Origin: Marinitoga hydrogenitolerans DSM 16785
GTDB taxonomy: Bacteria; Thermotogota; Thermotogae; Petrotogales; Petrotogaceae
Direction of reading: 5' to 3'
Length of the DNA: 46,289 nucleotides
Assembly (NCBI RefSeq): GCF_900129175.1
Contig: NZ_FQUI01000016.1
Location: 1-46,289 of the forward strand
In this document: piece after piece, positions 337 through 17,518 of the stretch
Layout of the letters: each line of letters opens with the position of its first letter
Position numbering within the stretch: position 1 is the first letter of the stretch
The notes under the pieces: generated by a model
Database searches by the model: none
What the model was told of the DNA's origin: nothing
Seen by the model: only the letters and a program-made list of their open reading frames with translations
Position numbers and translations under genes: made by a program

Positions 337-1434
337 TCAAGGTAAAGATAATTTTCCCAAAATACATTCTCTTTTTGCACCCGTAACATTAACTATATTT
401 GAATTAATTCCATTTAAAAATTCATTAGCCAAAATAGTCATTGCAATCGCTTCTTTTGATTCAATGAATTGATGAATTTCAACATTATAACCAAAAGATT
501 TTATATCTTTTATTAAAACAGGATTATATGCTCCGCCACCAGAGATTATTAGAGTATTAATTTCAGGAACATGCAATTCCAAATTTTTATGTATAGTGTA
601 AGCAGTAAAATATGTAAGCGTTCTTATTAAATCATATGGGTTATAAGATAGTAAATCAGATAAGTAATTTTCATTATAAATTTCTCTACCTGTAGTTTTT
701 GGTGTTTTTTTATTTAAATATTTAGTTTCTCTGGAAACTAATTTATTAAATATTTCTTCATTTATTTTGCCTTTTTTAGACAAATTGCCATCTTTATCAT
801 AAGATTGATTAAAAAAAAGATTTGCAATAGAGTCTATTAAACAGTTTCCAGGTCCTGTATCAAAAGCTATAATTTCCTCTTTTTTTTCAGATAAATACGT
901 TATATTTGAAATTCCACCAATATTTAAAGTTGCGGTTTTTTTTCTATCTCTAAAAAATATCCAATCGAAGTAAGAAGTAATAGGAGCACCTTCACCGCCT
1001 AATGCAACATCTTTTGTTCTAAATGAAAATATAACAGGAACGTTTAATTCAACAGCAAGAATATCAGATTCACCTATTTGAAGAGTATATCCCTCTTTTG
1101 GGTTATGATATACAGTTTGGCCATGATAACCTATTAAATCAAATTCCCAGTTTAAAGACTTTATCATTTCTGCATGTTTTTTGGCAATGTAAAAATTTAA
1201 ATATGCAATATCTTTTACTGTTGAGATATCAGGGTTATATGATCTAATTATTTTTTCTTTTAAGGATGTTGAATATGTTATTGATTTAAATTTCAAAAGT
1301 TCGAATTTTGTATTTTCCTCCCTACCAGATACCTTTACAAGAGCTACATCTAAACCATCAGCAGAAGTTCCAGACATTAAACCTAAAATTATTCTTTCTT
1401 TTTTATTTAAAATATTAAAGAAGTTATTCCACAT
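337..1434 (-). CDS. anmK: Anhydro-N-acetylmuramic acid kinase
   Basis: AnmK hydrolyses the 1,6-anhydro bond of anhydro-MurNAc and phosphorylates it with ATP to MurNAc-6-phosphate in the cytoplasm, the committing step of cell-wall sugar recycling. The 365-residue product has the family's normal length. It shows the N-terminal phosphate motif GLMSGTSADGLD (residues 18-29), GYHGQTVYH, the ALGGEGAP segment, FDTGPGNCLID and the C-terminal ISGGGAYNP ATP-binding motif. Start ATG at 1434 overlaps the stop of the upstream hydrolase by one base, with GGAGG about nine bases before it, so translation is probably coupled. It is the last gene of the putative muropeptide operon. MurQ, which would act next, is not in the window. 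Confidence 0.95.
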   Translation of the reverse strand: MWNNFFNILNKKERIILGLMSGTSADGLDVALVKVSGREENTKFELLKFKSITYSTSLKEKIIRSYNPDISTVKDIAYLNFYIAKKHAEMIKSLNWEFDLIGYHGQTVYHNPKEGYTLQIGESDILAVELNVPVIFSFRTKDVALGGEGAPITSYFDWIFFRDRKKTATLNIGGISNITYLSEKKEEIIAFDTGPGNCLIDSIANLFFNQSYDKDGNLSKKGKINEEIFNKLVSRETKYLNKKTPKTTGREIYNENYLSDLLSYNPYDLIRTLTYFTAYTIHKNLELHVPEINTLIISGGGAYNPVLIKDIKSFGYNVEIHQFIESKEAIAMTILANEFLNGINSNIVNVTGAKRECILGKLSLP

Positions 1435-2465
1435 TATAATAGTCCTCCAAAAATCACATTATGTAATAATATTCTTATTCTATTTATTTTTTTAAGATTT
1501 TTTCCAAATCTTTCGTAATATGTTCTATTAGTAAGAAAAATAACAAATAAATCTCTATATCCCCATATGCTAGTTCCCGTAAATCCAGTATGTCCGTATG
1601 CGTCATCATACATATTTAAAATATCACCAGCGCTACTTCCAGGATTAGGTGCCATCCAGCCAATATGCTTCTTTATATTATCTATATTAATAGTTGTAGT
1701 TGTAAATAAGTTGAAAAAGTTTTTTGGAATTATTTTTCCTTTTATTAAATGTGAAAGAAGAGTATATATTTCATTCGCATTCCCAAATAATCCAGCATTT
1801 CCACTAATTCCTCCAAGGTAATAGGCTAATTCATCATCAGGTTTTCCTATTAATCTATTTCCATTACGAATCGATGTTGGAGCTATTTTTAAAGATATTT
1901 TTTCATAAGGTTTGAAAAAAAGATTTTTTATTTCATAATCCCTGTATATTGATTCAATGTAATCATTAAACTTTTTTTCTGTTATTTTTTCTATTATGTG
2001 CATAAGAAGTATAAAATTTATACAAGAATAAACTATTTTTTGATCAGGCATATTTTCGGGATCTGTTTCTAAAATTTTATTATAAAGCGTTTTGCCATTA
2101 TAATCCTTCCATAATTCGCTATATGCAGGTAGTCCAGATGTATGAGTTAATAAGTTAAATATTGTAATATCCTTTTTATCATCTTTGAACCCAAAATTTT
2201 CTAACGTATCATTTAAATGAAAATATCCTTCTGATAATAGTTTCATTATTGCAATTGTTGTTGCTAAAACTTTGGTTAAGCTGGCTAAATCATAAATGGT
2301 ATCTAATGTTGTTTTTTTCTTTTCGTCAATGGTCCCATATGATTTTGAATATAAGATGTTTTCAGGATTTCCAACTAATATAGTTCCGCCAGGATAAACT
2401 TTTTCTTTTATTCCGGAATTAATAATTCTATCAACGTTATTCCATATTTCTTTTTTATAATTCAT
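1434..2465 (-). CDS. Class C beta-lactamase-like serine hydrolase, possible MurNAc-L-Ala amidase (AmiE-like)
   Basis: A 343-residue beta-lactamase/PBP4* family (PF00144) protein. The catalytic SxxK motif is SLTK at residues 62-65 and the third box is HTG in AYGHTGFTG, as in esterase-like members. The second box reads YSC instead of the usual YxN, an odd substitution. There is no signal peptide, so it should act in the cytoplasm. In Bacillus subtilis, AmiE (YbbE) of this superfamily removes the peptide from MurNAc and works with NagZ. Here the gene directly precedes anmK and shares the operon with a NagZ homologue, so an amidase acting on MurNAc-peptides is the best guess. An esterase or D-aminopeptidase role is possible. 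AAGGTG precedes the ATG at 2465. Confidence 0.8.
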   Translation of the reverse strand: MNYKKEIWNNVDRIINSGIKEKVYPGGTILVGNPENILYSKSYGTIDEKKKTTLDTIYDLASLTKVLATTIAIMKLLSEGYFHLNDTLENFGFKDDKKDITIFNLLTHTSGLPAYSELWKDYNGKTLYNKILETDPENMPDQKIVYSCINFILLMHIIEKITEKKFNDYIESIYRDYEIKNLFFKPYEKISLKIAPTSIRNGNRLIGKPDDELAYYLGGISGNAGLFGNANEIYTLLSHLIKGKIIPKNFFNLFTTTTINIDNIKKHIGWMAPNPGSSAGDILNMYDDAYGHTGFTGTSIWGYRDLFVIFLTNRTYYERFGKNLKKINRIRILLHNVIFGGLL

Positions 2466-2490
2466 AAATACACCTTCTATAATTTTTAAT

Positions 2491-3303
2491 TTAATCTTTT
2501 TCTGAAGTTGTTCTTTTAACCATTACAATTCCTGTATAAAATTCTATATAATAAGTAGGCATAAGATAGGGATGTTTTATTTTCTCTATCATTATTTTTT
2601 GAATATTTTTTTGATCATTATTATGAATTACAATACAACCATGCGTTTTTCTCAATTCTTTCTTTTCAGTTCCACCATGTATTAATATCCCATCTCTGTT
2701 TATTTTGTATATATTAGTTGCATATCCATATAACGGATACCATAATCTAAAAACACCATTATATCCAAATTTTTCAGGATCGTTTTTTAAAATACCAGAT
2801 TCATAAGATGACAAATAAATACCTATTGGTGTATCGCCGTTAACCATTTTTTGGCTTATTGAAGTTTCTATGTCATGCTGACCATGTCCTCTTGCGCCAC
2901 ATGAATATAGTAATTTGCTTTCCATGTTATATAATTTTAAAGTTCCCAATTTTGCTCTATTATCTGGTAATATAACTTCAATTAAAAATATAAAATTTTC
3001 ATTTGTGAGATCTAAAATCTTTTTAATTGTTTTAATACCTATATTGCCTTCATCGATATTCCAATCTTTTTTGAATTCGTTTATACTTTTAAAAAAATTT
3101 TCATCAGCAACTTGATCAATCTTGAATTTCGAACCCTTTCCAGAGAAATACAGCAATTTTGAAAATAAAAATTTTAATCTCCATATATCATTTCCAAAAT
3201 CATTTAATTTTATATCTCTAAAAAATGGTTCATATATTTCAAAAGCTCCAATTTTCCTTTTTAAACCAAAAGAATTAATTTTTTCATAATTATAATTATC
3301 CAT
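2491..3303 (-). CDS. YkuD-domain protein without signal peptide, candidate cytoplasmic L,D-carboxypeptidase
   Basis: The C-terminal half carries the YkuD (L,D-transpeptidase) signature: ILIHGG with His209, then THGC with Thr220, His221 and the presumed nucleophile Cys223 (numbering from ATG 3303). The N-terminal half is not recognised. The ATG at 3303 is preferred to an upstream TTG because GGGTGA sits five bases before it, overlapping the stop of lysA. Classical L,D-transpeptidases are exported, but this one has neither a signal peptide nor a membrane segment. Acinetobacter ElsL shows that cytoplasmic YkuD proteins can act as L,D-carboxypeptidases removing the terminal D-Ala from recycled tetrapeptides. 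Its position between lysA and an AmiE-like gene fits that role, which remains an inference. Confidence 0.8.
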   Translation of the reverse strand: MDNYNYEKINSFGLKRKIGAFEIYEPFFRDIKLNDFGNDIWRLKFLFSKLLYFSGKGSKFKIDQVADENFFKSINEFKKDWNIDEGNIGIKTIKKILDLTNENFIFLIEVILPDNRAKLGTLKLYNMESKLLYSCGARGHGQHDIETSISQKMVNGDTPIGIYLSSYESGILKNDPEKFGYNGVFRLWYPLYGYATNIYKINRDGILIHGGTEKKELRKTHGCIVIHNNDQKNIQKIMIEKIKHPYLMPTYYIEFYTGIVMVKRTTSEKD

Positions 3304-3307
3304 ATTT

Positions 3308-4474
3308 TCACCCATCAATAATTATATTTTTGTATAAATCATCATAACTTTCTCTTTTTCTTATTAATTTTGTCTCATGATTTTTAGTAACAAGTATTTC
3401 AGCGGGTTTTAAAGCAGAATTATAATTATTTGACATTGAATAACCATAAGCACCAGAGTTTTTTAAATATATTAAAGAATTTAATTCTGGAATTGGTAAT
3501 ATTTTATCCCATACCAGTTTATCTCCAGATTCGCATAAAGGTCCTACAATATCTGCCAACTTTTTATTTTCTGTTGGGTTTAAAAAAACAGGTTCATGAT
3601 AGGAATTGTATAAAGCAGGTCTTATTAAATCGTTCATTCCACCATTAGTTACTATAAATGTTTTATTTTCAGTTTCTTTGATTTGAACGACTTTTAATAA
3701 TAAAATACCCGCGGGAGCTATTATAAATCTTCCTAATTCTAAGATTACTTCATCATATCTCTTTAATAAAGGAATTACCTTTTTTTTATATTTATCTAAA
3801 TCTAATTCTTTACCAACATAGTTTATTCCCCAACCGCCACCGATATTTATTTTTCTAAAATTATATTTTTCAGAAAATTGTTTGGCTATTTCAAATGTTT
3901 TAACAAAAGGTTCTATTTCTGTAATTTGAGATCCGATATGAAAGTGTAATCCTTTTATTCTTTTGTCAGGAAAGTTCTTTAATACTTTTTCAACCATATG
4001 AATAGGAATTCCAAATTTATTTTTTTTCAATCCAGTAGAAATATGTGGATGCGTTTTAGCATTTATATCAGGATTAACTCTTAAAAAAAATTCAATTTCT
4101 TCATTATTATTTTCTTGCCAGAATCGCATTTCTTCAAAAGAGTCTATATTAACGTATTTTATTTTCTTATTTAAAAATTGTATTTCTTCTTTACTTTTTC
4201 CATTTCCATTCCAAACGATTTTTTCTTTTGGAATTCCAGCTAATTCAGCAGCTTTATATTCACCTATTGTAACAATATCTGCTCCAAAATCATATTTATT
4301 AAGAAGTTTTAAAATATTTGGATTATTGTTAGCTTTAACAGCAAATGTTGGAGTTAAATTTATATCTTTAAATATATTCCACATTTTATTTATCCTTTTT
4401 TCTATTTCTTCTTCAAAGTATACGTATGCAGGAGTTCCGAATTTTTCATTTATGTTTTCTAAAAGTTCTTTCAC
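3308..4474 (-). CDS. lysA: Diaminopimelate decarboxylase family (LysA)
   Basis: PLP-dependent fold-type III decarboxylase of 388 residues, converting meso-diaminopimelate to L-lysine. Visible motifs are FAVKANN with the PLP lysine at 47, HIGSQI, the phosphate-binding NIGGGWG, GPLCESGD with the active-site Cys, and AYGYSMSNNYNS. The usual EPGR reads ELGR here, a mild departure. Start is GTG at 4474, with GGAGAGG five bases upstream, 24 bases after dacB. Lying inside a peptidoglycan-recycling run rather than a lysine biosynthesis operon suggests that it may process amino acids released from wall peptides. A broad-specificity decarboxylase or racemase-like activity cannot be excluded. Confidence 0.87.
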   Translation of the reverse strand: MKELLENINEKFGTPAYVYFEEEIEKRINKMWNIFKDINLTPTFAVKANNNPNILKLLNKYDFGADIVTIGEYKAAELAGIPKEKIVWNGNGKSKEEIQFLNKKIKYVNIDSFEEMRFWQENNNEEIEFFLRVNPDINAKTHPHISTGLKKNKFGIPIHMVEKVLKNFPDKRIKGLHFHIGSQITEIEPFVKTFEIAKQFSEKYNFRKINIGGGWGINYVGKELDLDKYKKKVIPLLKRYDEVILELGRFIIAPAGILLLKVVQIKETENKTFIVTNGGMNDLIRPALYNSYHEPVFLNPTENKKLADIVGPLCESGDKLVWDKILPIPELNSLIYLKNSGAYGYSMSNNYNSALKPAEILVTKNHETKLIRKRESYDDLYKNIIIDG

Positions 4475-4498
4475 AGAAACCTCTCCTTCAATATAAAA

Positions 4499-5635
4499 TT
4501 ATTCTGAATAATTATATAAAAATTCTAAAATTCTATTTTCAAATGACTTTGCATCTACTTTTGCTTTTAAGTAATTATTTTCAAATAAAGAAAACACTAT
4601 AATTTTCCCATTTTTATTTTTCAAAAAACCAGCTATACCTGAAATACCTGTCATTGTTCCTGTTTTTGCCCAAACGTCGAAATTAAATCTTCCATTTATT
4701 GTTCCATCGGCTTTTGAATATGAAAGAATGTTTAAAAATTTATCACCGTATTTTTTATACATAAACTCTAACATTTGAACAACTAAATCTGGTGAAACAA
4801 GGTTATATCTTGATAATCCCGGTCCATCTACTATTGTAAAATCATTTATACCATAATTAAAAAGTTTTTTTGTAAGGTTTATTAAAGCTGCTATAGAATT
4901 ATTTATTGTTCCTTTTTTTAGAAACTTTGTTCCAACTGTTCTAAAAATATGTTCTGCAATTTCATTATCGCTATTTTTGACCATATACTGTAAAATTTCA
5001 TATAAAGTTTTTGATTTATGTATATAAAACGGAACTTTTTTAGAAGATATATATTTCATTTTTAGCTCACCATTAACTTTAACATTAAGATCCTCAAATG
5101 ATTTTTTTATAATATTAAACATGTACTCATTAATATCTTCTGGAGATAAATTGCCAGGGCGAATATTTTTTATGGTAAATGCGTTTATGAATGGATTAGC
5201 ATCATCCCACATCCAGCCTTTTCCAAAGAATTCTTTTTTGTCAAATAGTCTATCATCTATTATAATGTTGTTTATTTCTGTTATATTATTTTCTTCCACA
5301 AGTGTTTTTATTATATTATGTAAATCTGCTGGATAAAGAGTTGGATCACCACTACCTTTGACTTCAAAATCTCCATTTTCATAATAAAATTTTGTTTTAT
5401 ATGTATAATCCAGGCCTAAAATTTCATATGCTGAGAATAATGTAAATAATTTAGTGACAGAAGCTGGTGTAAAATTTTTAGTGACATTTGTAGAAATTAA
5501 AATTTTATTGGTGTTAAACTCTTTCGCATAAATCCCAACAAAACCGTGAAAATTATCGATTATAGAGTTTATATCGTTATTTGCATAAATGAATACGTTT
5601 ATAATTAATAATATACTAATAATTATTTTTTTCAT
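4499..5635 (-). CDS. dacB: D-alanyl-D-alanine carboxypeptidase/endopeptidase, PBP4 (S13) family
   Basis: Low-molecular-weight class C penicillin-binding protein of 378 residues. It has a short N-terminal signal peptide (about residues 1-18, ending IYA) and then the three penicillin-binding boxes: SVTK (Ser59, Lys62), SDN in NSDNEIAE, and KTG in AKTGTMTG. It should act in the periplasm, removing terminal D-Ala or cutting peptide cross-links, and so could generate the muropeptides taken up by the transporter encoded just upstream. The ATG at 5635 overlaps the MalG-type permease stop by four bases (ATGA). It is shorter than E. coli DacB, mainly because the large insertion domain is reduced. Confidence 0.9.
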   Translation of the reverse strand: MKKIIISILLIINVFIYANNDINSIIDNFHGFVGIYAKEFNTNKILISTNVTKNFTPASVTKLFTLFSAYEILGLDYTYKTKFYYENGDFEVKGSGDPTLYPADLHNIIKTLVEENNITEINNIIIDDRLFDKKEFFGKGWMWDDANPFINAFTIKNIRPGNLSPEDINEYMFNIIKKSFEDLNVKVNGELKMKYISSKKVPFYIHKSKTLYEILQYMVKNSDNEIAEHIFRTVGTKFLKKGTINNSIAALINLTKKLFNYGINDFTIVDGPGLSRYNLVSPDLVVQMLEFMYKKYGDKFLNILSYSKADGTINGRFNFDVWAKTGTMTGISGIAGFLKNKNGKIIVFSLFENNYLKAKVDAKSFENRILEFLYNYSE

Positions 5636-6471
5636 TCTTTAATAGCACCTCCAACAAGCCCTGAAATAATCTGTTTCTGGAAAGCTAAAAATACAATGAT
5701 AACAGGTATTGTGGCTATACTTGATCCAGCCATTAGATGGACATAATCTACACCATGAAGTGTATTAAAATATGCAATACCTATTGGTAATGTTCTCATA
5801 TTATCAGTATTAGTAAATATTAAAGGATATAGGAATGAGTTCCACGTGGTTAAAAAGGTGTTTATTCCCAGAACAGCTATAGCTGGTCTGGAAATAGGCA
5901 TTAATATTTTAAATAATATATTGAGATCACTTGCACCATCAATTCTTGCAGCTTCATCTAAAGACATTGGTAAGCCATCAAAATATTGTTTCATTAAAAA
6001 TATTCCAAAACCTTGAACTGCAAAAGGTAAAATAAGTGCCCAATACGTGTTATACATCCCTAATTTTTTTATTAGTATAAATAAAGGAATCATTAGAACC
6101 TGAGGTGGAATCATCATAGTTCCTAAAATAATTATTAATACTAGATTTGCTCCTTTAAATTTCTTTCTCGATAACGCAAAGGCTACAATAGAATCTAAAA
6201 TTATATTTAAAATTGTTACAGAAAAAGTTACAATAACGCTGTTTAAGAAATATCTATTAAAATTAGAGCTTTTCCATACATCAATATAATTTTGGAAAGT
6301 TATTTTTTTTGGTATTAAACTATCCCATGTTGGAAGTATATTACCTTCTGATTTTACTGATGTAGAAAGCATTATATATAACGGAAAAAGTGTGGTAAAA
6401 ACTAGAAATATCAGCAGTATATATGCCAGGGTTCTTTTAATCTTATATTTATAATCTTTTTTTATAATCAT
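5632..6471 (-). CDS. Sugar ABC transporter permease, MalG-type (CUT1)
   Basis: Inner-membrane permease with about six hydrophobic segments and the cytoplasmic EAA loop that docks the ATPase (DEAARIDGASDLNILF...MPISRP). Start is taken as ATG 6471, because an ideal GAGGTGA lies five bases upstream and overlaps the previous gene's stop; an in-frame TTG 24 bases earlier has no such site. It forms the heterodimeric channel with the preceding MalF-type permease and overlaps dacB by four bases. The neighbours suggest that the substrate is an amino-sugar disaccharide or muropeptide rather than maltose. Confidence 0.92.
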   Translation of the reverse strand: MIIKKDYKYKIKRTLAYILLIFLVFTTLFPLYIMLSTSVKSEGNILPTWDSLIPKKITFQNYIDVWKSSNFNRYFLNSVIVTFSVTILNIILDSIVAFALSRKKFKGANLVLIIILGTMMIPPQVLMIPLFILIKKLGMYNTYWALILPFAVQGFGIFLMKQYFDGLPMSLDEAARIDGASDLNILFKILMPISRPAIAVLGINTFLTTWNSFLYPLIFTNTDNMRTLPIGIAYFNTLHGVDYVHLMAGSSIATIPVIIVFLAFQKQIISGLVGGAIKE

Positions 6472-6475
6472 AAAA

Positions 6476-7363
6476 TCACCTCTTATCTCTAACAACGAGC
6501 TTTTGAATAATTGTGAAGAACAAAATAATTAAAAATAACACATAAGCCATTGCAGATGCATAACCCATTTTCATTTTATGAAATCCAGTTTCATAAAGAT
6601 AGTAAACAACTGTTGTAGTTGATCTCAGAGGTCCTCCCTGTGTCATAACATATACTTCAATGAATATTTGGAATGAACGAATTGTATTTATAACCAATAC
6701 AAATAGAAGCATTGGAGAAATTAAAGGGAAAGTGATTTTTCTGAATAATATAAAACCTTTTGCTCCATCAATTGCAGCAGCTTCATATATTTGTTCATCT
6801 ATTGATTGTAAACCAGCTAAAAATAATATTGTATAATAACCAAAACTTGCCCAAACATCCATTAGCATTATTGCGTATAACGCATATTTAGGATCGGCGA
6901 GTATTCCTCTTCCGAATTTTATATCCGCTCCAAGGAATTTTATAAGTGCTGTTAAATAACCGTTTGGAGAGTATAAAAAAGAAAAAATAGTAGCTATTAC
7001 TACCATTGAAGTTACAACAGGCATAAAATAACTTGATTGAAAAAACTGTTTTTTTCTTATATTTAGATTACTTACTAATAGGTTAGCTATAAATAATGCT
7101 ATTATAGTAGTTAAAGGAACTGTTATTATAACAAATAAAACTGTATTTTTTAAAGCTGTTGCAAATATAGAATCATTTAGTATTTTTTCATAGTTTCTCA
7201 ATCCGACAAATATAGGAGGTTTATTTCGTATAGGATTATATCTTGTAAAAGATAAATAAAATGAATAAATTATAGGATATAGTTTAAATATCAAGAATGA
7301 GATTAACCACGGTGAAATCAATAAAAGGATTTTTAATTTTTCTTTCAAACTTCTTTTTTTCAT
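6476..7363 (-). CDS. Sugar ABC transporter permease, MalF-type (CUT1)
   Basis: A 295-residue integral membrane protein with six predicted membrane segments and the EAA loop EAAAIDGAKGFILFRKITFP. It pairs with the MalG-type permease immediately downstream (four bases between stop and next start). Upstream is a 115-base gap containing two strong hairpins that separate it from the binding-protein gene, a common arrangement giving much more binding protein than permease. No ATPase gene accompanies the pair, so a shared MsmX/UgpC-type ATPase encoded elsewhere probably powers it. Confidence 0.92.
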   Translation of the reverse strand: MKKRSLKEKLKILLLISPWLISFLIFKLYPIIYSFYLSFTRYNPIRNKPPIFVGLRNYEKILNDSIFATALKNTVLFVIITVPLTTIIALFIANLLVSNLNIRKKQFFQSSYFMPVVTSMVVIATIFSFLYSPNGYLTALIKFLGADIKFGRGILADPKYALYAIMLMDVWASFGYYTILFLAGLQSIDEQIYEAAAIDGAKGFILFRKITFPLISPMLLFVLVINTIRSFQIFIEVYVMTQGGPLRSTTTVVYYLYETGFHKMKMGYASAMAYVLFLIILFFTIIQKLVVRDKR

Positions 7364-7390
7364 TCTGCCACCTCTATTGCTCTATAAATT

Positions 7391-7445
7391 TATAAGATTT
7401 ACAGAAAATTTTATTATGTATTAAAAATTTTTTGTAAATCTTATA
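7391..7445. repeat. 22-bp-stem AT-rich inverted repeat between binding protein and permease genes
   Basis: Arms 7391-7412 and 7424-7445 pair over 22 positions with a single G-T wobble, leaving an 11-base loop. The outer 13 bases (TATAAGATTTACA and its complement) are perfect. In the minus-strand transcript it follows the GC-rich hairpin at 7460-7477, so the mRNA would fold into two consecutive stem-loops here. Confidence 0.75.
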
Positions 7446-7459
7446 ATGAATCAGGTAAA

Positions 7460-7477
7460 GGTGGGGAGAACCCCACC
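7460..7477 (-). terminator. GC-rich stem-loop after the binding-protein gene (attenuator/processing site)
   Basis: Arms GGTGGGG (7460-7466) and CCCCACC (7471-7477) with a four-base loop. On the minus strand it begins 14 bases after the binding-protein stop and is followed by TTTACC, too short a U-run for a full terminator. It most likely causes partial termination or protects the 3' end of the upstream mRNA. Confidence 0.7.
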
Positions 7478-7490
7478 AGAGTTAATAAAA

Positions 7491-8708
7491 TTATTCACCA
7501 TATTCTTCTTCAAATTCTTCTAAAATAATGTTTATTTCTTCTGCAGCGTCTTTCATAGCTATTTCAGCATTCATGGTTCCGTTATAAACCTCTGTAATAT
7601 ATTGAGTTAAAACTTCTTGAATATCTATCCATTTTGGATGTGCTGGTGGTGTTTTGGTAAATTGTAATTGTTTAATTATGACATCAAATCCTGTTTGTTT
7701 TTTATAAAAATCATCATCTTTAACACTTTTATCAGCTGGGACAAGAGTAGGAATTCTTGAAGATATAGCCATAGATGCTTTTTTAGAGACTATATATCTT
7801 GCTAATTTTTCTGCAGCCTCTGGATACTTAGTATTTGCTGGTATAACAATAACTTCTGCTCCACCAAATTGAATAGGTTTTGACCATAATTTATCAGGTC
7901 TTACAAATAAGGAATAACCAAAGTTTAACTCAGGAGCGTCTTTAGCAAATGTTTTTATCTTACCAATATCATCTAGAATAATACCAACTTTTCCTTGCAT
8001 AAATGCTTGTCTTACGTTTAAATTAGAATCAATCATTGAGAAGTGAGTAAGACTTTGAACGTATTTTAAAGCATTTATAAATTCAGCAGAATCTACAGCA
8101 GCTTTTTTCCAATCATCACTTAATACGTTTCCGCCATTCGACCATGCAAAAGGTAAGAAAGTTTGCCATGTTGTATATCCTCCAACTTTAATGCCAAAAC
8201 CGAAAATGTCATCATCAAGGGATGATATTTTTTCTGCAGCGTCATATAATTCTTTCCAGGTTCGTGGAGGTAATTCTGGATCTAATCCGGCTTTTTTGAA
8301 TAAATCTTTGTTATAGAATAAAATTCTTGTTGATAATACCCATGGGTATCCATAATATTTCCCTTTATAAATAACAGGATCCCACATATTGTATTGATCT
8401 ACTATATCTGAAACATCAACTTCTTTTAATGCTCCATCAGCTGCAAATTGTGATACCCATGTTGAACCTAATTCAAGAACATCTGGTGTATCTCCGGCCG
8501 CAAATGCTGTAACAATTTTATTAAACCCGTCGGACCATGTTAAACGTTCAATTTGAACTTCAATATCAGGATTTTCTTTCATAAAATCTTCAATCATAGG
8601 ACCAATCCAGTTATCAGACCAAAAATTCCAGAACTTTAAAGTAACTTTAGCTTGAACAAATGAACTTACTAACAATACCAATACAAGTAAAATAGTTAAC
8701 TTCTTCAT
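7491..8708 (-). CDS. Sugar ABC transporter substrate-binding protein
   Basis: A 405-residue family 1 extracellular solute-binding protein. Residues 1-20 form a signal peptide (MKKLTILLVLVLLVSSFVQA) with no lipobox cysteine, followed directly by the typical VTLKFWNFWSDNW opening. The mature part has the usual family motifs, such as GDTPDVLELGS and YNKDLFKKAGLDP. It should capture the substrate outside the inner membrane and deliver it to the MalF/MalG-type permeases encoded downstream. The gene follows nagZ by 13 bases. Its substrate cannot be read from sequence; the operon points to GlcNAc-containing disaccharides or muropeptides. Confidence 0.93.
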   Translation of the reverse strand: MKKLTILLVLVLLVSSFVQAKVTLKFWNFWSDNWIGPMIEDFMKENPDIEVQIERLTWSDGFNKIVTAFAAGDTPDVLELGSTWVSQFAADGALKEVDVSDIVDQYNMWDPVIYKGKYYGYPWVLSTRILFYNKDLFKKAGLDPELPPRTWKELYDAAEKISSLDDDIFGFGIKVGGYTTWQTFLPFAWSNGGNVLSDDWKKAAVDSAEFINALKYVQSLTHFSMIDSNLNVRQAFMQGKVGIILDDIGKIKTFAKDAPELNFGYSLFVRPDKLWSKPIQFGGAEVIVIPANTKYPEAAEKLARYIVSKKASMAISSRIPTLVPADKSVKDDDFYKKQTGFDVIIKQLQFTKTPPAHPKWIDIQEVLTQYITEVYNGTMNAEIAMKDAAEEINIILEEFEEEYGE

Positions 8709-8721
8709 AAAATATACCCCC

Positions 8722-10302
8722 TCATTTTAAAATGCTATTTCCAAATAATATTTTTTTATTATTATATAAATATTCAAAAAGCGATTTCGCAAAATATTCA
8801 TTCCAATCATATGTCATAATATATGAACTCACATTGTTTTTATTTTTTAAAAATAGGTAATCGTATGGTGATTGTATAGCAACTATTAAATTATTTTTAT
8901 TCTGTTCAATTACCAAATCTGCTAATTGAGAAACATACTTATTTATTACAACATCAATTGTAAAAAATATTATGCCATCATATTCTTTAGTTTTTTTTAT
9001 GTAATTTTTATATCTATATGGTGATGAAGATATATTATATTTTTTAATTTTATATTCGATATTATTTTTATCAAAATATTTTGATATATATTCATTTAAA
9101 TAGGCTCTTTCCTGAACCCTAGTATAATTTAATGAAGTTGGGAAGAATATTAAATATTTTTTATTTTTTTCTATTCTAAAATTTCCTTTATAAACAGCTA
9201 TACCTTTACTAATTTTGTTTTCTAATTCTTCTTCAGATAAATTTGGGTCTTTAAATTCCATATTAGCATATTTTAACTTTAAGGATATAATTTTTTCTAA
9301 TGAATTATCTATTATTTCTTCACTAATATTTCCTTTCTTTACTTCATTCATTATATAATCAATTGCTTTTTTCTGAATATCAATATCTTTCCAGATAATA
9401 AACATATTAACTCCAGCTAATAAACTCTCTTTTACAACTTCACAAACATCTTTCTCTTTTGCAACTGCACCCATTAAAAGATCATCACTAATAATTACAC
9501 CCTTAAAATTTAAATCATTTCTTAAATAGGATATAATTTTTTTTGACAATGTTGCAGGTTTATTGTCCCAAAAAGGTAGAAGTATATGAGCTGTCATTAT
9601 TGCTGGAATACCATGTTTTATAGCTTCCTTAAATGGATATATATCTTCTTTTTCATATTGTTCTTTTGATTTATTTATAATAGGAAGATTTTTATGTGAA
9701 TCAACTTCTGTATCACCGTGACCAGGGAAATGTTTACCTACAGGTATTACTCCACCGTTTAATAGGCCTCTAAAATAATCAATTCCATTTTGAGCAACTA
9801 TCTTTTCATCATTCCAAAAAGATCTTACACCTATAATTGGATTATATGGATTTGAATTCACATCTAAGACTGGAGAAAAATTCATATTAATTCCTAATTC
9901 TTTTAATGATTTTCCAGAAAAATATCCAACTTTATAAGTTAAATCAGGATTATTTAATGCACCTAAAACCATCATATTAGGAGGTACGAAAATATCTCTA
10001 ATTCTCGCTACCATACCTCCTTCTTGATCAATGGCAATAAAAGGTGGTATTTCTTTAGTATGTGCTTTTATATCTTTTATCAATTTCTTTACCTGTTTTT
10101 TATTTTTCACGTTTCTTGAAAAAAGAATAAAGTTATTTGCACCATAATCTATTAATTCTTGAATTTTATTATTATATTCTGTTCCATCAAATCCAAAAAG
10201 GAATAATTCTCCTATTTTTTCTTTTAAAGACATATTATTAATAAATTGTGTAATGGTTATAACCCCCATTAAAATTAATTTGAAACTGTTATTCATACTC
10301 AT
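8722..10302 (-). CDS. nagZ: Beta-N-acetylglucosaminidase, GH3 family (NagZ) with C-terminal domain
   Basis: Releases terminal GlcNAc from GlcNAc-(anhydro)MurNAc. Residues 25-350 are a GH3 barrel with the NagZ hallmark KHFPGHGDTEVDSH (190-203), which supplies the Asp-His general acid pair (D201/H203), AIDQEGG at 90-96, and the nucleophile Asp in SDDL (272-275). About 170 further residues follow, as in two-domain Gram-positive NagZ and unlike short E. coli NagZ. A hydrophobic stretch at residues 8-20 could be a signal or anchor, so the protein may act outside. The ATG at 10302 overlaps the repressor stop (ATGA); ATG 10296 is better spaced from the GAGG site and equally possible. Confidence 0.92.
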   Translation of the reverse strand: MSMNNSFKLILMGVITITQFINNMSLKEKIGELFLFGFDGTEYNNKIQELIDYGANNFILFSRNVKNKKQVKKLIKDIKAHTKEIPPFIAIDQEGGMVARIRDIFVPPNMMVLGALNNPDLTYKVGYFSGKSLKELGINMNFSPVLDVNSNPYNPIIGVRSFWNDEKIVAQNGIDYFRGLLNGGVIPVGKHFPGHGDTEVDSHKNLPIINKSKEQYEKEDIYPFKEAIKHGIPAIMTAHILLPFWDNKPATLSKKIISYLRNDLNFKGVIISDDLLMGAVAKEKDVCEVVKESLLAGVNMFIIWKDIDIQKKAIDYIMNEVKKGNISEEIIDNSLEKIISLKLKYANMEFKDPNLSEEELENKISKGIAVYKGNFRIEKNKKYLIFFPTSLNYTRVQERAYLNEYISKYFDKNNIEYKIKKYNISSSPYRYKNYIKKTKEYDGIIFFTIDVVINKYVSQLADLVIEQNKNNLIVAIQSPYDYLFLKNKNNVSSYIMTYDWNEYFAKSLFEYLYNNKKILFGNSILK

Positions 10303-11042
10303 TTCGCCTCTAATGTAATCCTTAATTTAAAATTATCTTTTTTATATTTTGATTCAACATACTCAAAAGGAATATTATCCTGACTGCTGGTTAAACGTAT
10401 GATAGATAAAACACAATCATTTTCTTTTATATTAAGAATTTTTGAGATTTTTTTATTTGCATGAATAATTTCAATTTCTTCTTTTGCATGTGTTGGGAAA
10501 ATTTGAAATTTATCTTTTAACAATTTATATAAGGAAAGATTTGACATATCTTTTTCTTTTATTTCTATGAGTTCAGGATAAGCAGATATATTAAGATAAG
10601 CATTTTCTATAGCTCGAGGAATATTACCTTCAAATCTAATTCTTGAAAGAAGTAAGACTTTTTGATTTTTCTTTAATTTAAATATTTTCACTACTTTGGC
10701 ATCAGGTAATATAAAACCATTGAAAAGGACTTTCGCCTTTGTTTTTTTACCTATGCTTTCCATTTCATCATTAAAACCCTTTAAAGATGTCAAATCAGTA
10801 ATAAGTTTTTTTTCTGAAACAAATGTTCCTTTTCCTTGAATTCTATAAATAATTCCTTCATTTATTAATTCTTTCATTGCATTCCTTACAGTTAATCTAC
10901 TCACACTATATTTTTTTGAAAGTTCATCTTCAGTTGGTAATAGTGTATGTGCTGGCAATTTGTTCAATTCAATATAATTTTTTAGTTGTTCTTTGATCTG
11001 ATAATACAATGGTATTGGACTGTTTCTATCTATACTATCCAT
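10299..11042 (-). CDS. GntR-family transcriptional regulator, HutC/UTRA subfamily
   Basis: A 247-residue repressor with an N-terminal winged helix-turn-helix (residues 1-75, with the typical LPTEDELSKKYSVSRLTVR) and a C-terminal UTRA ligand domain. Amino-sugar regulators NagR/YvoA and DasR belong to this subfamily and respond to GlcNAc-6-P, GlcN-6-P or related sugars. It is the first gene of the operon and overlaps nagZ by four bases. AGGAGAG precedes the ATG. A perfect palindrome lies between its promoter and its start, so autoregulation and control of the whole cell-wall-fragment operon are likely. Confidence 0.92.
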   Translation of the reverse strand: MDSIDRNSPIPLYYQIKEQLKNYIELNKLPAHTLLPTEDELSKKYSVSRLTVRNAMKELINEGIIYRIQGKGTFVSEKKLITDLTSLKGFNDEMESIGKKTKAKVLFNGFILPDAKVVKIFKLKKNQKVLLLSRIRFEGNIPRAIENAYLNISAYPELIEIKEKDMSNLSLYKLLKDKFQIFPTHAKEEIEIIHANKKISKILNIKENDCVLSIIRLTSSQDNIPFEYVESKYKKDNFKLRITLEAK

Positions 11043-11072: not shown

Positions 11073-11088
11073 ATTTGTATATACAAAT
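11073..11088. promoter_or_regulatory. Palindromic operator for the GntR-family regulator
   Basis: ATTTGTATATACAAAT is a perfect 16-bp palindrome located just downstream of the -10 box and about 30 bases before the regulator start. HutC-type GntR proteins bind TGTATA-centred palindromes, so this is the likely repressor site blocking transcription at initiation. Confidence 0.7.
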
Positions 11089-11235: not shown

Positions 11236-11883
11236 TTGTGTAGGATGGTAGGTTTTTCGTTTAATGAAATAAGAGAAAGTAGTTTTTTATTTGAACATTT
11301 AAAACAAATGTCGAAAAGTGGAATAGAATCACCACATTCACATGGTTGGGGTATGGCGATAAAGTATAATGATAAAGAAATTATATTTCATAAATCAATA
11401 AATCCAATTTATAATGAAAAAAGAATAAACATAGAAGGATATATAGGTATAATGCATTCAAGAAAAGCCTCACCAAAATTAGAAAAAACATTTCTTCAAT
11501 TACACCCATATTTTATAAAAGATACTTTCTTTTGTCATAATGGAACAATATATATGGATCAAATTAATAATGTTTTTGGTACAGATAGTTTTGAATATTT
11601 TAAATACATCAACGATTTTTCTAATGAAGATGAATTAAAAAGAAAAATAAAATTATTTTCTGAAAAAAATAAATATACTGGAATTAATTTTTTAATGATT
11701 AAAAATGATAAACTTTATGCTTTTTGCAAGTATAAAAAAGAAAAAGAATATTATACAATGTGGTATTCAGAAAAAAATGGGGTTATAATATCATCAGAAA
11801 AATTAGATGATTCTTTTCAACCGTTTGAAAATGGAATGTTTTTAATAGCATTTAATGGAGAAATAATAAAAAAGTGTAATTAG
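11236..11883 (+). CDS. Class II glutamine amidotransferase family protein (YafJ-like)
   Basis: A stand-alone N-terminal-nucleophile amidotransferase domain of 215 residues. Start is a TTG at 11236 behind GGAGGGA, which puts the expected nucleophile Cys at position 2 (MCRMVGF). Other family signatures are HGWGMAI, the HSRKAS segment, CHNGTI and ISSEKL. There is no synthase domain, as in YafJ-type proteins, so the acceptor reaction is unknown. It is transcribed away from the muropeptide operon and stands alone. A tentative promoter is TTGAAA at 11156 with TAAAAT at 11177 (15-base spacer). Confidence 0.82.
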   Translation: MCRMVGFSFNEIRESSFLFEHLKQMSKSGIESPHSHGWGMAIKYNDKEIIFHKSINPIYNEKRINIEGYIGIMHSRKASPKLEKTFLQLHPYFIKDTFFCHNGTIYMDQINNVFGTDSFEYFKYINDFSNEDELKRKIKLFSEKNKYTGINFLMIKNDKLYAFCKYKKEKEYYTMWYSEKNGVIISSEKLDDSFQPFENGMFLIAFNGEIIKKCN

Positions 11884-12045: not shown

Positions 12046-13041
12046 TTATTTTTTATTGAATAAATGGCAATTTACTTCATGTTGTTCGTCTAATTTTATT
12101 GTTTGTGGCTCTTCAATCTTACATATATCCATTGCATATGGGCATCTTGGATGAAATCTACAACCTTTTGGTGGATTAACGGCATTAGGGACTTCGCCTT
12201 GTGGGATGATTTTTTGTTTTTTTAATTTTGGATCTGGTTCTGGAACTGCTGAAATTAATGCTTTTGTATAAGGATGTGCAGGATTTCTATATATATCTTC
12301 AAATGTTCCTATTTCAACTATTTTTCCAAGATACATAACAGCTATTCTATCACATATATATTTGGTTGTAGCTAAATCATGAGTAATAAATAGATATGTT
12401 AAATTAAATTCTTCTTTTAAATCAATCATTAATTTTAATAATTGTGATCTTACAGAAACGTCTAGCATTGCTATTGCTTCATCAGCGACTATAAATTCTG
12501 GTTTTAATACGAGTGCTCTTGCTATAACCACCCTTTGCCTTTGACCACCGGATAAATCACGTGGATATCTATTATAATATTGTTCTGCCGGCTTTAAATT
12601 AACCCTTTCCATAATATCATATACTATTTGTTTTTGTTCTGTATAATTTTCCCCTATTTTATGTATTTTCAGTGCATGACGAATTGCTTCACCAATTTTC
12701 ATATATGGGTTTAATGCTGCCATTGGATCTTGGAAAATAATTTGTATCTTTTTTCTGAATTTTCTTAATTCTTCTGAAGTTAAAGAAGTTATATCTATAT
12801 CATTAATTTTAATTGTACCAGAGGTAGGTTCTAATAATCTTAAGACCATTCTCCCTGTTGTGGTTTTTCCTGAACCGGATTCACCTACTAGTCCCAACGT
12901 TTCTCCTTTTTTTATTGTAAAAGATATATCATCAACAGCCTTTACGAATTTTTGTTCTTTCCTTGTTAAAAATTCTGTTATAGTTCTTTTCAATGGAAAA
13001 TATTTTTTTAAATTTTTTACTTCGATTAAATTTTGATTCAT
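12046..13041 (-). CDS. oppF: Oligopeptide/dipeptide ABC transporter ATPase (OppF/DppF)
   Basis: One of two ATPases of a nickel/peptide/opine-type importer, 331 residues. It has Walker A GESGSGKTT, the Q-loop FQDPMAALNP, ABC signature LSGGQRQRV, and Walker B FIVADEA. The residue after the catalytic Glu is Ala rather than the usual Pro (DEAIAMLDVS). The C-terminal oligo_HPY region carries a CRFHPRCPYAMDIC cluster and a later Cys; this four-cysteine motif is typical of Opp/Dpp ATPases. It overlaps oppD by four bases. Peptides are the default substrate, although in Thermotogota such systems often move oligosaccharides. Confidence 0.93.
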   Translation of the reverse strand: MNQNLIEVKNLKKYFPLKRTITEFLTRKEQKFVKAVDDISFTIKKGETLGLVGESGSGKTTTGRMVLRLLEPTSGTIKINDIDITSLTSEELRKFRKKIQIIFQDPMAALNPYMKIGEAIRHALKIHKIGENYTEQKQIVYDIMERVNLKPAEQYYNRYPRDLSGGQRQRVVIARALVLKPEFIVADEAIAMLDVSVRSQLLKLMIDLKEEFNLTYLFITHDLATTKYICDRIAVMYLGKIVEIGTFEDIYRNPAHPYTKALISAVPEPDPKLKKQKIIPQGEVPNAVNPPKGCRFHPRCPYAMDICKIEEPQTIKLDEQHEVNCHLFNKK

Positions 13042-14006
13042 ACTTTCACCTTCTCATATAGCCAGCATTTTACCTTTGTACCTTCAACTTCAAAATCTGG
13101 AGGAATTTGTTCATGGCATATACTTTTTGCATAAGGACATCTAGATGCAAATCTGCACCCTTTTGGAGGTTTTACTAGATTTGGCAAATCTCCAGGAATA
13201 TATCGTAACTCTCTGTCTTCAATATTAGTATTAGGTATAGATTTTAATAATGCTTGAGTATAAGGATGTTTTGGTTCATAATATATTTTTTCTGCAGTTG
13301 ATAGTTCAACTAAATGTCCAGCATACATAACACCTATTCTATCAGCTAATTCAGCAACAACACCTAAATCATGAGTAATTAAAATCATAGACATTCTATG
13401 TTCATCTTTTAATTTTTTTAATACTGTCATTATTTGGGCCTGTACAATAACATCTAATGATGTAGTTGGTTCATCTGCAATTACAATTTCCGGTTTCAAA
13501 ACAAGAGATAAAGCTATCATAACTCTTTGCCTCATTCCACCAGAAAATTGAAAAGAATATTCGTTCATACGTATTGGGTCTATACCAACATCTGATAATA
13601 TTTTACCAGACATCTCGAGTGCTTCTTCTTCAGGTATATCAGGATAATGAGATTTTATTGTTTCCAAAAACAAATCTTTTACCTTCATTATAGGATTTAA
13701 TGACGTCATTGGGTCTTGGAAAATCATAGAGATATGTTTTCCTCTAATTTTTCTCATTTCTTTCTCATTGTATTTTGCAATATTTTTATTTTTAAAAAGT
13801 ATCTCACCATCAATTTTTGCATTCTTAGGTAAAATTTTCAATAAGGATTTTCCCAATGTAGATTTTCCACATCCAGATTCTCCTACTAACCCTAATGTTT
13901 CATTTTCTGATAAAGTTATATTGACATCTTGAACAGCATTAACAAATCCATTCCTTACTTCATAATTAATATTTAAATTTTTTATTTGTAATATCAAAAA
14001 ACTCAC
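13038..14006 (-). CDS. oppD: Oligopeptide/dipeptide ABC transporter ATPase (OppD/DppD)
   Basis: Partner ATPase of 322 residues with Walker A GESGCGKST, FQDPMTSLNP, signature FSGGMRQRV, Walker B IVIADEPTTSLD and the C-terminal cysteine motif CRFASRCPYAKSIC. The GTG at 14006 overlaps the oppC stop (GTGA). A TTG nine bases downstream (13997) has a better-spaced AGGTGA and may be the true start. It forms a heterodimer with OppF on the cytoplasmic side of the OppB/OppC channel. Confidence 0.93.
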   Translation of the reverse strand: MSFLILQIKNLNINYEVRNGFVNAVQDVNITLSENETLGLVGESGCGKSTLGKSLLKILPKNAKIDGEILFKNKNIAKYNEKEMRKIRGKHISMIFQDPMTSLNPIMKVKDLFLETIKSHYPDIPEEEALEMSGKILSDVGIDPIRMNEYSFQFSGGMRQRVMIALSLVLKPEIVIADEPTTSLDVIVQAQIMTVLKKLKDEHRMSMILITHDLGVVAELADRIGVMYAGHLVELSTAEKIYYEPKHPYTQALLKSIPNTNIEDRELRYIPGDLPNLVKPPKGCRFASRCPYAKSICHEQIPPDFEVEGTKVKCWLYEKVKV

Positions 14007-14875
14007 CTTCTTTCACGAATGGTAGGATTCAATAGTTCATTAAGGCCTTCGCTAAACAAAGAAAATCCTAAAACAATGGTTATTATAGCCATTCCAGGAT
14101 ATAATATACCCCACCATGCTCTTGATAAAACAAATCTCTGACCATTACTTAAATCATACCCCCAGTCTGGTGTTGGAGGAGCAATACCGAGACCTAAAAA
14201 GCTTAATCCTGCTTCGGTCATAATTGCGTCAGCTAAATTCATTGATAAAACAACAACAACAGAAGGTAACACGTTTGGTAAAATATATTTAAACAATATT
14301 TCCCAATTTTTTGCTCCAATAGCTCTGGCACCTTCAACATAAAGTTCATTTTTAATACTAGAAACCTGATTCCTTATAACTCTAAAATATGTTGGAGTAT
14401 AAACAACAGCTATAGATAAAGCAATATTAACCATGCCAGGTCCTAAAACAGCAGCTATTGCAATAGCTAATATTAATCCAGGAAAAGAATATATTGCATC
14501 CATTATTAATGTTAGAATTCTATCTAAAGGACCACCTATATACCCTGATAATAGTCCTAAAGGAATTCCAAATGCAGATGCAAAACCGACAGAAATAAAA
14601 GCTATAGATAAAGCAATTCTGGAGCCATATAATATTCTGCTAAAAACATCTCTTCCAAGATTATCTGTTCCAAAAATAAATTGACTATTTGGTGCGCTTA
14701 AAGCTCTACCAACCCTTTGTATAGGATTATAAGGGGCTAATTGTGGAGCGAAAATAGCCATTAGTATATAAAATAATAAAATCATTGCACCTGCAAAGGT
14801 TATCCAACCTGTTCCAGTTTTAAAAAGTTCTTTAAAAAACAATCCGATTTTATGTGAAAAAAATTTTTCTTCCAT
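14003..14875 (-). CDS. oppC: Oligopeptide/dipeptide ABC transporter permease (OppC/DppC)
   Basis: Inner-membrane permease of 290 residues. It has the N-terminal OppC segment with one membrane helix (about 25-45), the FGTDNLGRDVFSRILYGSR motif characteristic of OppC/DppC, then five more helices and the EAA-like loop (EGARAIGAKNWEILFKYILP). The C-terminus contains GLSFLGLGIAPPTPDWG, also typical. It lies nine bases after oppB and overlaps oppD. Confidence 0.94.
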   Translation of the reverse strand: MEEKFFSHKIGLFFKELFKTGTGWITFAGAMILLFYILMAIFAPQLAPYNPIQRVGRALSAPNSQFIFGTDNLGRDVFSRILYGSRIALSIAFISVGFASAFGIPLGLLSGYIGGPLDRILTLIMDAIYSFPGLILAIAIAAVLGPGMVNIALSIAVVYTPTYFRVIRNQVSSIKNELYVEGARAIGAKNWEILFKYILPNVLPSVVVVLSMNLADAIMTEAGLSFLGLGIAPPTPDWGYDLSNGQRFVLSRAWWGILYPGMAIITIVLGFSLFSEGLNELLNPTIRERR

Positions 14876-14884
14876 TTTATCACC

Positions 14885-15892
14885 TCAATATCTAACTCTT
14901 GGATCAATTAGAGCATTTATTATATCAATAACAATACTAATAATAATTACAAAAAATGCAAAAAAGACAATAGTTCCCTGAATAGCTGGAAAATCCCTAT
15001 ATCTAATTTTCATAACTAGATAACTTCCAAGACCAGGCCAAGAAAATGTTGTTTCGGTTAAGACGGCACCAGCTAATAAAATAGCCAATTGAAGTCCCAT
15101 AACTGTCAAAATAGGAACCATAGCATTTCTTAAAGCATGTTTATACAATACTCTTTTTTCACTAATCCCACGTGCTCTTGCAGCAGTAGAAAAATCTTGA
15201 GATAACATTAATATTGTATTGTTTCTAACCATTCTTAAAAATATACTTGAAATAACTAAACCAAGAGTAATGCCAGGCATTAGTAAGTGTTTTAAGACAT
15301 CAATAAATGCCTCCCAATTTCCTGAAATTAAAGCATCAAATAAAAAAAATCCTGTTTTTGTATCTAACGAAACGATAGGAGATAATCTACCAGCAACAGG
15401 TAGCCATCTTAGTATCATTCCAAAATAATATTGCATCATTAAACCAAACCAAAAAACAGGTATGGCGTAAATAAACACTGCATAAACTCTTGCAGAGACG
15501 TCTATAATTCCATCTCTGTGCGCCGCTGCTGCACTACCCCAAAAAATTCCAATTAAAACGGCGATAATAAAAGCGAATAAGGTTAATTCTACAGTTGCAG
15601 GAAATCTATCTATTATTTCATTCCATACGGGTCTTGATGTAAGGGTGGATGTACCAAGATCACCCTTTAATAATTTACCAACATAATCAAAAAATTGTGC
15701 AATAATAGGTTTATCTAAACCTAATTCATGACGTTTTTGTTCTATAACCTCTTGTGGAGCTTTTCCACCCAACATTGCTAAAACAGGATCACCTGGAATA
15801 ATTCTAAGAACAAAGAATATTACAATTAATAAAATGAACATCATAGGTATAGCCAATAAAATACGTGTGAGTATATAATCTTTTAAGGACAA
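14885..15892 (-). CDS. oppB: Oligopeptide/dipeptide ABC transporter permease (OppB/DppB)
   Basis: Permease of about 335 residues beginning SLKDYILTRILLAIPMMFI, with the OppB hallmarks IPGDPVLAMLGG, the GDLGTS segment and the EAA-like loop TAARARGISEKRVLYKHALR. The start is taken as TTG 15892, five bases after AGAGGTGA. An in-frame ATG at 15922 is rejected because it lies in the loop of the hairpin that separates oppA from oppB. It forms the membrane channel with OppC. Confidence 0.9.
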   Translation of the reverse strand: MSLKDYILTRILLAIPMMFILLIVIFFVLRIIPGDPVLAMLGGKAPQEVIEQKRHELGLDKPIIAQFFDYVGKLLKGDLGTSTLTSRPVWNEIIDRFPATVELTLFAFIIAVLIGIFWGSAAAAHRDGIIDVSARVYAVFIYAIPVFWFGLMMQYYFGMILRWLPVAGRLSPIVSLDTKTGFFLFDALISGNWEAFIDVLKHLLMPGITLGLVISSIFLRMVRNNTILMLSQDFSTAARARGISEKRVLYKHALRNAMVPILTVMGLQLAILLAGAVLTETTFSWPGLGSYLVMKIRYRDFPAIQGTIVFFAFFVIIISIVIDIINALIDPRVRY

Positions 15893-15913
15893 AGTCATCA
15901 CCTCTTTTAAAAA

Positions 15914-15931
15914 CCCCGCCATGCGGCGGGG
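15914..15931 (-). terminator. GC-rich stem-loop with T-run between oppA and oppB
   Basis: Arms CCCCGCC and GGCGGGG with a four-base loop are followed on the minus strand by TTTTT. It begins seven bases after the oppA stop, so it should end most transcripts there and let a fraction continue into oppBCDF, giving excess binding protein. Confidence 0.82.
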
Positions 15932-15937
15932 AAATTA

Positions 15938-17437: not shown

Positions 17438-17518
17438 ACTATCCCTCCCTCTAAGTAATGTTAAATAAAAATTTAAAATTAGTAACTTTTGATTTTTGAT
17501 ATAAAAAATCATAAACAT

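Follow-up and report, generated by a model that had tools for sequence, protein, structure and literature searches.

The major facilitator AmpG and the phosphotransferase MurP are described routes by which cell-wall sugars cross the bacterial inner membrane, and in the nagZ-amiE-murQRP-namZ cluster of Bacillus subtilis, NagZ, AmiE and NamZ act outside the cell while MurP imports N-acetylmuramic acid (MurNAc). Here we describe a predicted ten-gene operon from Marinitoga hydrogenitolerans DSM 16785 (contig NZ_FQUI01000016.1, positions 337-11042, minus strand), in which genes for the breakdown of peptidoglycan fragments accompany a CUT1-type sugar ABC importer. The window analyzed is the entire contig (C16; 46,289 nt) of a 2.31 Mb genome in 87 contigs (G000). 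The operon shares with the B. subtilis cluster a YbbD-type NagZ, an AmiE-like hydrolase and, as shown below, a MurQ gene, but differs from it by the presence of the anhydro-N-acetylmuramic acid kinase AnmK, leaderless enzymes and the CUT1 importer. Our search of the open-access literature gave no CUT1 importer with a link to AnmK, and as far as we could find, a CUT1 front end for wall-fragment catabolism has not been described before.

Other inner-membrane routes include MurT of Tannerella (PMC10465942). YejBEF-YepA of Agrobacterium resembles the system described here in that an ABC importer takes the place of AmpG in muropeptide uptake, but its binding protein and permeases are of the peptide type (Yej/Opp) and not CUT1 (PMC9790009). 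For UspABC of Mycobacterium tuberculosis, a carbohydrate ABC importer, a role in peptidoglycan recycling has been proposed, and its binding protein has millimolar affinity for amino sugars (chitobiose, muramic acid); the system differs in its preference for free amino groups, no linkage to AnmK, MurQ or NagZ is described there, and its transport of wall fragments is only proposed (PMC4929945). The ChiR regulon of Thermotoga (ChiEFG, CbsA, NagAB) likewise places a CUT1 importer beside a glycoside hydrolase family 3 (GH3) beta-N-acetylglucosaminidase and NagA/deaminase, with permeases that group with those of the window, but it has a ROK regulator and a CbsA-type NagZ, has no AnmK, MurQ, AmiE, DacB, YkuD or LysA, and is assigned to chitobiose (PMC3750489).

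Gene content of the operon

Window proteins were assigned to families by Pfam and NCBIfam profile scores against curated cut-offs. The ten open reading frames at 337-11042 all lie on the minus strand, in the order that the first-pass annotation had stated. A GntR/HutC-type regulator (10299-11042; GntR and UTRA domains) is followed by NagZ, a two-domain, YbbD-type GH3 beta-N-acetylglucosaminidase (8722-10302; NF003740, 217.5 against a cut-off of 207), and by the CUT1 solute-binding protein (SBP), which carries a signal peptide (7491-8708; SBP_bac_1). The MalF-like (6476-7363) and MalG-like (5632-6495) CUT1 permeases, both BPD_transp_1, precede a DacB/PBP4-type D,D-carboxypeptidase/endopeptidase with an N-terminal signal-like segment (4499-5635; PF02113, and TIGR00666 at 150 against 107.8) and the diaminopimelate (DAP) decarboxylase LysA (3308-4474; TIGR01048, 416.8 against 297.9). 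Next come a YkuD protein (2491-3318), in which a helical peptidoglycan-binding-like N-domain is joined to a YkuD domain (H...THGC) scoring 23.1 bits for PF03734, slightly below the cut-off of 23.4, and an AmiE/PBP4B-like serine hydrolase without a signal peptide (1434-2465; PF00144, class C beta-lactamase-type, with SLTK, YSC and HTG motifs). The last gene encodes AnmK (337-1434; PF03702 at 274 bits, and equivalog NF007148 at 419.9 against 387). From GntR to AnmK the spacings are -4, 13, 127, -20, -4, 24, -11, 25 and -1 nt, such that the near-continuous overlaps noted earlier hold for all junctions except that between SBP and MalF, where the gap is 127 nt. Given this content, we are highly confident that the operon serves the catabolism of cell-wall (peptidoglycan) fragments.

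An insertion sequence separates AnmK from MurQ

The gene set stops at 337 because contig C16 ends there inside an insertion sequence (IS). The contig end lies 336 bp past AnmK, within the element, whose left end (1-320; terminal inverted repeat TAGGATCTTCAAAAAT) truncates C16 and separates AnmK from MurQ. The terminal 320 bases of C16 are near-identical to ends of contigs C33, C65 and C26, and the first 307 bases of contig C47 recur at ends of C56, C25 and C51 and, over a shorter length, at ends of C75 and C73. The C16-type and C47-type ends are opposite termini of a single type of IS, whose inverted ends read TAGGATCTTCAAAAAT and TACCATCTTCAAAAAT. The flanks of C16 and C47 share a 13-bp direct repeat, TTATATCAATATG in minus-strand reading, which forms a target-site duplication at 321-333 of C16 with its second copy at 308-320 of C47, just before MurQ. 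For a 13-bp match at fixed positions across 24 combinations, at this base composition, the expectation is ~4e-6. Each of the other left ends pairs with one right end through its own 9-10 bp duplication (C65-C51 share TTTATTCAA, C26-C25 TTAAGAAAGA and C33-C75 CTAATATAA). More generally, this multi-copy element, with its target duplications of 9-13 bp, breaks many contigs of the genome, and its flanking repeats let these contigs be paired.

When the two flanks are joined, the AnmK stop codon is followed by 31 nt containing a GGAGG ribosome site and then by the MurQ ATG; AnmK and MurQ were therefore once consecutive genes, later split by the IS. On C47, MurQ (C47:351-1190) is tightly followed by a SIS-domain protein and by NagA (above cut-off), the best match of the SIS protein being GlmD, a glucosamine-6-phosphate deaminase (124.9 bits, below the cut-off of 580). 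The order before insertion would then have comprised 13 genes, GntR-NagZ-SBP-MalF-MalG-DacB-LysA-YkuD-AmiE-like-AnmK-MurQ-SIS-NagA, which by predicted function is a near-complete route to fructose-6-P. AnmK, MurQ and NagA, the enzymes of E. coli-type MurNAc recycling, are all present in the genome. The window set had been called self-contained, a description that has to be given up, because the product of AnmK requires MurQ and NagA, found across the IS on C47, and the importer ATPase is encoded elsewhere.

The importer and its likely substrate

With an SBP_bac_1 binding protein and two MalF/MalG-type permeases, the importer is of the CUT1 type, as first proposed. No ATPase gene lies in the operon; MsmK/UgpC-type candidates occur elsewhere in the genome (C9:4404-5492, above the NF008653 cut-off), and we infer that such an ATPase serves the importer as a shared subunit. 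The suggestion that AmpG is not the route was borne out, with no match in the host genome and none above cut-off among 103 Thermotogota genomes (0/103), a sample in which the host genus is represented by 7 genomes. The operon holds neither MurP, for which the genome was not searched, nor an SBP_bac_5 (Opp/Yej-type) binding protein. Among the 103 genomes, orthologs of the SBP (75-79% identity) occur only in G019, G098 and G097. In a collection of named genomes, scanned by two peptide patterns, the close matches were two Thermotogaceae metagenome-assembled genomes (MAGs) only, plus one remote match, and a plasmid search gave no match above 60% identity.

As the SBP tree had weak support and long outgroup branches, the MalF tree was used instead. 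In it, the window MalF groups within a clade (98/99 support) with permeases of NagZ-linked, ChiEFG-type loci, and ChiEFG of T. maritima is assigned to chitobiose, a disaccharide of N-acetylglucosamine (GlcNAc) (PMC3750489). The importer and NagZ might accordingly form a chitobiose (chitin) system, a ChiEFG-CbsA paralog that merely lies beside wall-recycling genes: the SBP is 34-39% and MalF ~50% identical to their counterparts in these loci, the NagZ model also resembles a Paenibacillus GH3 beta-N-acetylglucosaminidase (template-modelling (TM) score 0.83), and NagA/GlmD-type genes would serve chitobiose too. Yet AnmK and MurQ, which are of no use for chitobiose, are linked to the CUT1 importer in several lineages, the set has GntR and a YbbD-type NagZ where the Chi loci have a ROK regulator and a CbsA-type NagZ, and the SBP is without residues common in the Chi clade (SGAW becomes DDxG, and in the SPWQ region GENYSPWQQW becomes GxYTTWQT), at positions that may line the sugar site. 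These differences make a chitobiose system improbable. The NagZ model also matches B. subtilis NagZ with GlcNAc-MurNAc (TM 0.81), as against 0.52 for Thermotoga CbsA/NagZ. The NagZ model, the SBP changes and the action of AnmK and MurQ only on muramyl sugars therefore favor GlcNAc-(anhydro)MurNAc over chitobiose, and on these sequence comparisons the CUT1 system probably imports a muramyl disaccharide or muropeptide. That it also carries peptide-bearing forms can be suggested only tentatively.

Processing of imported fragments

We considered a signal peptide on NagZ and rejected it: the N-terminal stretch is ordered in the GH3 model (residues 11-30, predicted local distance difference test (pLDDT) ~91-93), with no obvious cleavage site. 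A cytoplasmic location is therefore favored, and NagZ probably acts inside the cell, as judged by the model. The hydrophobic N-terminal extension of this protein (FKxLLxGTLTLS type; 10230-10302, minus strand) is conserved only in the four CUT1-linked NagZ proteins and is absent from other AnmK-linked ones.

The AmiE-like protein, a candidate MurNAc-L-Ala amidase by sequence, has no signal peptide in the window or in most relatives. The YkuD protein is leaderless in all three known cases (the window and two relatives), and the catalytic His and Cys (THGC/SHGC) are kept; the relative in G042, a genome of the host genus, is 57% identical and scores 30.6 bits for PF03734. This leaderless architecture, in which a helical domain of peptidoglycan-binding type is joined to a divergent YkuD domain, occurs in only 3 of the 103 genomes; the resemblance of the helical domain is to a peptidoglycan-binding fold. 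In a low-confidence model (pLDDT 58), the N-domain resembles the peptidoglycan-binding domain 3bkh over 78 columns (1.9 A), and the protein weakly matches the L,D-transpeptidase 4lpq. ElsL/LdtK of Acinetobacter is a leaderless, cytoplasmic YkuD L,D-carboxypeptidase that acts in recycling, and the window protein resembles it in lacking a leader, in its catalytic Cys and in its placement in a muropeptide pathway (PMC8649774). It differs by its extra N-domain and remote sequence, its activity being only predicted, and by analogy it is a candidate cytoplasmic L,D-carboxypeptidase. The lack of signal peptides on both the AmiE-like and the YkuD protein suggests that muramyl residues still carrying peptide enter the cytoplasm.

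LysA is an extra copy in this genome, as contig C17 carries a biosynthetic-looking one flanked by asd and dapA. For the walls of Thermotogales, L- and D-Lys but no meso-DAP have been reported (PMC5487896), and a dedicated extra LysA therefore fits foreign, DAP-type walls. Of the previously proposed use of diaminopimelate, the enzyme is present, but the use itself is uncertain in view of the same wall composition, and LysA may serve another role.

The fragments could instead come from the cell's own wall, an alternative that concerns their source and not their route. AnmK, MurQ and NagA make up the E. coli-type recycling path, and turnover of the wall would supply fragments constantly; on the other hand, six sister genomes of the genus manage without AnmK and MurQ, the set has its own regulator and catabolic genes leading all the way to fructose-6-P, and it includes the extra LysA despite the reported absence of DAP from these walls (PMC5487896). 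We regard own-wall recycling as rather doubtful.

AnmK loci across Thermotogota

AnmK occurs in 51 of the 103 genomes and MurQ, above or near cut-off, in 56. The two occur together in 46 genomes, AnmK alone in 5, MurQ alone in 10 and neither in 42 (Fisher p 8.6e-14, uncorrected for relatedness), and the host genome is the sole one of the seven in its genus with AnmK (1/7) and MurQ. A serine hydrolase adjoins AnmK at 44/50 AnmK loci, and within eight genes of AnmK an Opp-type importer is found at 27/50 loci and CUT1 permeases at 8/50. Further neighbors include NamZ, MurQ, a BadF-type sugar kinase, NagA, SIS proteins, NlpC/P60 and NagZ, and AnmK loci can therefore be viewed as peptidoglycan-catabolism islands. 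At L037, L039, L040, L045-L047, L049, L080 and L063-L067, serine hydrolase-AnmK pairs are accompanied by Opp importers, NamZ, GH84, NlpC/P60 or transglutaminase-like genes; AnmK-linked Opp importers are candidate muropeptide importers of AmpG-less bacteria.

The CUT1 front end was found in the host operon, in G019 and in the two Thermotogaceae MAGs. In G019 (Kosmotogaceae; one contig of 2,302,126 bases), all ten window genes and MurQ are clustered in a rearranged layout, MurQ-GntR-NagZ-SBP-MalF-MalG-DacB with a divergent serine hydrolase-AnmK pair and with YkuD and LysA on either side. G097 carries SBP-MalF-MalG-DacB, with kinase-GntR-MurQ and NamZ-serine hydrolase-AnmK within ~10 kb, and G098 carries NagZ-SBP-MalF-MalG-DacB on a short contig. 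The neighborhood comparison that the first-pass annotation had called for thus shows that the grouping of wall genes with CUT1 genes recurs in other lineages, alongside the co-occurrence of AnmK and MurQ.

In G042, which is without AnmK or MurQ, an Opp importer comes after DacB-LysA-YkuD, and its closest relatives (52-58% identity for the binding protein) are found downstream of AnmK in G036/G037. The same processing module is therefore paired with either importer type, Opp in G042 and CUT1 in the host. This locus (L095; G042:C2:2047600-2059400) has two tandem OppA-like binding proteins, 72% identical to each other, and is possibly a peptide-only version of the pathway.

Does the peptide enter with the sugar?

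Several observations weigh against import of intact muropeptides and against a complete pathway. We know of no CUT1 binding protein that takes peptide-bearing ligands, and the peptide may be removed outside or enter through another system; a Dpp-type peptide importer (12046-17518) lies next door, though at 22-27% identity it is distinct from the AnmK-linked importers. A dedicated GlcNAc kinase was not found, a BadF-type search of the host genome being negative, and there was no sign of a gamma-D-Glu-DAP peptidase to release DAP from the tripeptide, so that the use of GlcNAc and DAP is incomplete; a ROK glucokinase-type protein is present in the genome and might serve as GlcNAc kinase. Finally, the join of C16 and C47 rests on the pairing of duplications and not on reads.

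A serious contender, if somewhat short of probable, is therefore that import is confined to the sugar moiety (GlcNAc-anhMurNAc or a MurNAc-type disaccharide), with peptides removed outside or entering separately, and with the cytoplasmic AmiE-like and YkuD proteins handling fragments from another importer. This is a sub-version of the muramyl-import reading favored here and compatible with it. The CUT1 family transports sugars, a separate Dpp-type importer adjoins the operon, and in G042 the DacB-LysA-YkuD module is paired with an Opp importer instead; against this, the absence of a signal peptide from the AmiE-like protein means that peptide-bearing muramyl residues should reach the cytoplasm, and the neighboring importer is no ortholog of the AnmK-linked type. 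Orthology of the two was considered and rejected on the identity to AnmK-linked OppA. The adjoining importer is a five-gene, Dpp/Opp-type ABC system, and a plus-strand class II glutamine amidotransferase-like gene (11236-11883) lies between it and the operon.

Regulation signals

A promoter-like TTGACT-17-TAAAAT lies at 11128-11100 on the minus strand, 58 nt upstream of the GntR start. The earlier proposal of a single promoter keeps this site, but such sites are not enriched in the sequence (95 matches against 90.8 in shuffles), and co-transcription of the set is presumed. Between the promoter-like site and the GntR start codon, at 11073-11088, lies a perfect palindrome of 16 bp, ATTTGTATATACAAAT; the window holds five palindromes of this length. 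The one at 11073-11088 is plausibly an operator for GntR, which may act as repressor of the operon, and it contains GTnTAnAC, which we take to be a HutC-type core. Since a GTnTAnAC operator was not found upstream of the relatives' genes, the palindrome is a lead limited to the window.

The 127-nt gap between SBP and MalF (7364-7490, minus strand) holds two strong hairpins (-35.8 kcal/mol). In ABC operons, hairpins commonly separate the gene for the binding protein from those for the permeases, and the transcripts may therefore be graded; by this analogy, the hairpins likely set SBP expression above that of the permeases.

A model for wall-fragment catabolism in Thermotogota

Combining these observations, we consider it likely that this is an operon, originally of 13 genes and probably inducible, for wall-fragment catabolism with CUT1 import of GlcNAc-(anhydro)MurNAc with or without peptide. 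Exported DacB would trim or uncrosslink muropeptides, and the importer (SBP, MalF, MalG and the shared MsmK/UgpC-type ATPase) would take up GlcNAc-(anhydro)MurNAc, either bare or peptide-bearing. Inside the cell, NagZ would cleave off GlcNAc, the AmiE-like hydrolase would free the muramyl residue of its peptide, and the terminal D-residue of the stem would be taken off by the leaderless YkuD protein. AnmK would then yield MurNAc-6-P, MurQ would convert it to GlcNAc-6-P, and NagA would deacetylate this product, from which the SIS protein would form fructose-6-P, while LysA would turn any released DAP into lysine. A further and distinctly more speculative proposal is that a Thermotogota species feeding on foreign, DAP-type walls takes up peptide-bearing GlcNAc-(anhydro)MurNAc through a chitobiose-related CUT1 importer, to be processed by cytoplasmic NagZ, amidase, L,D-carboxypeptidase, LysA and AnmK-MurQ-NagA, and that in this phylum, where AmpG is absent, a CUT1 or an Opp importer can equally well feed the same muropeptide pathway.

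The presence of AnmK in half of the sampled Thermotogota, and of AmpG in none, raises the question of how muropeptides are imported in this phylum. The gene neighborhoods offer two testable importers, an Opp type at over half of the AnmK loci and a CUT1 type in a small group, together with a candidate pathway that is nearly complete. Should the CUT1 importer indeed take up muramyl disaccharides or muropeptides, a major family of sugar importers would gain a new class of substrates, and a defined set of genes would be available for the feeding of thermophiles on necromass.

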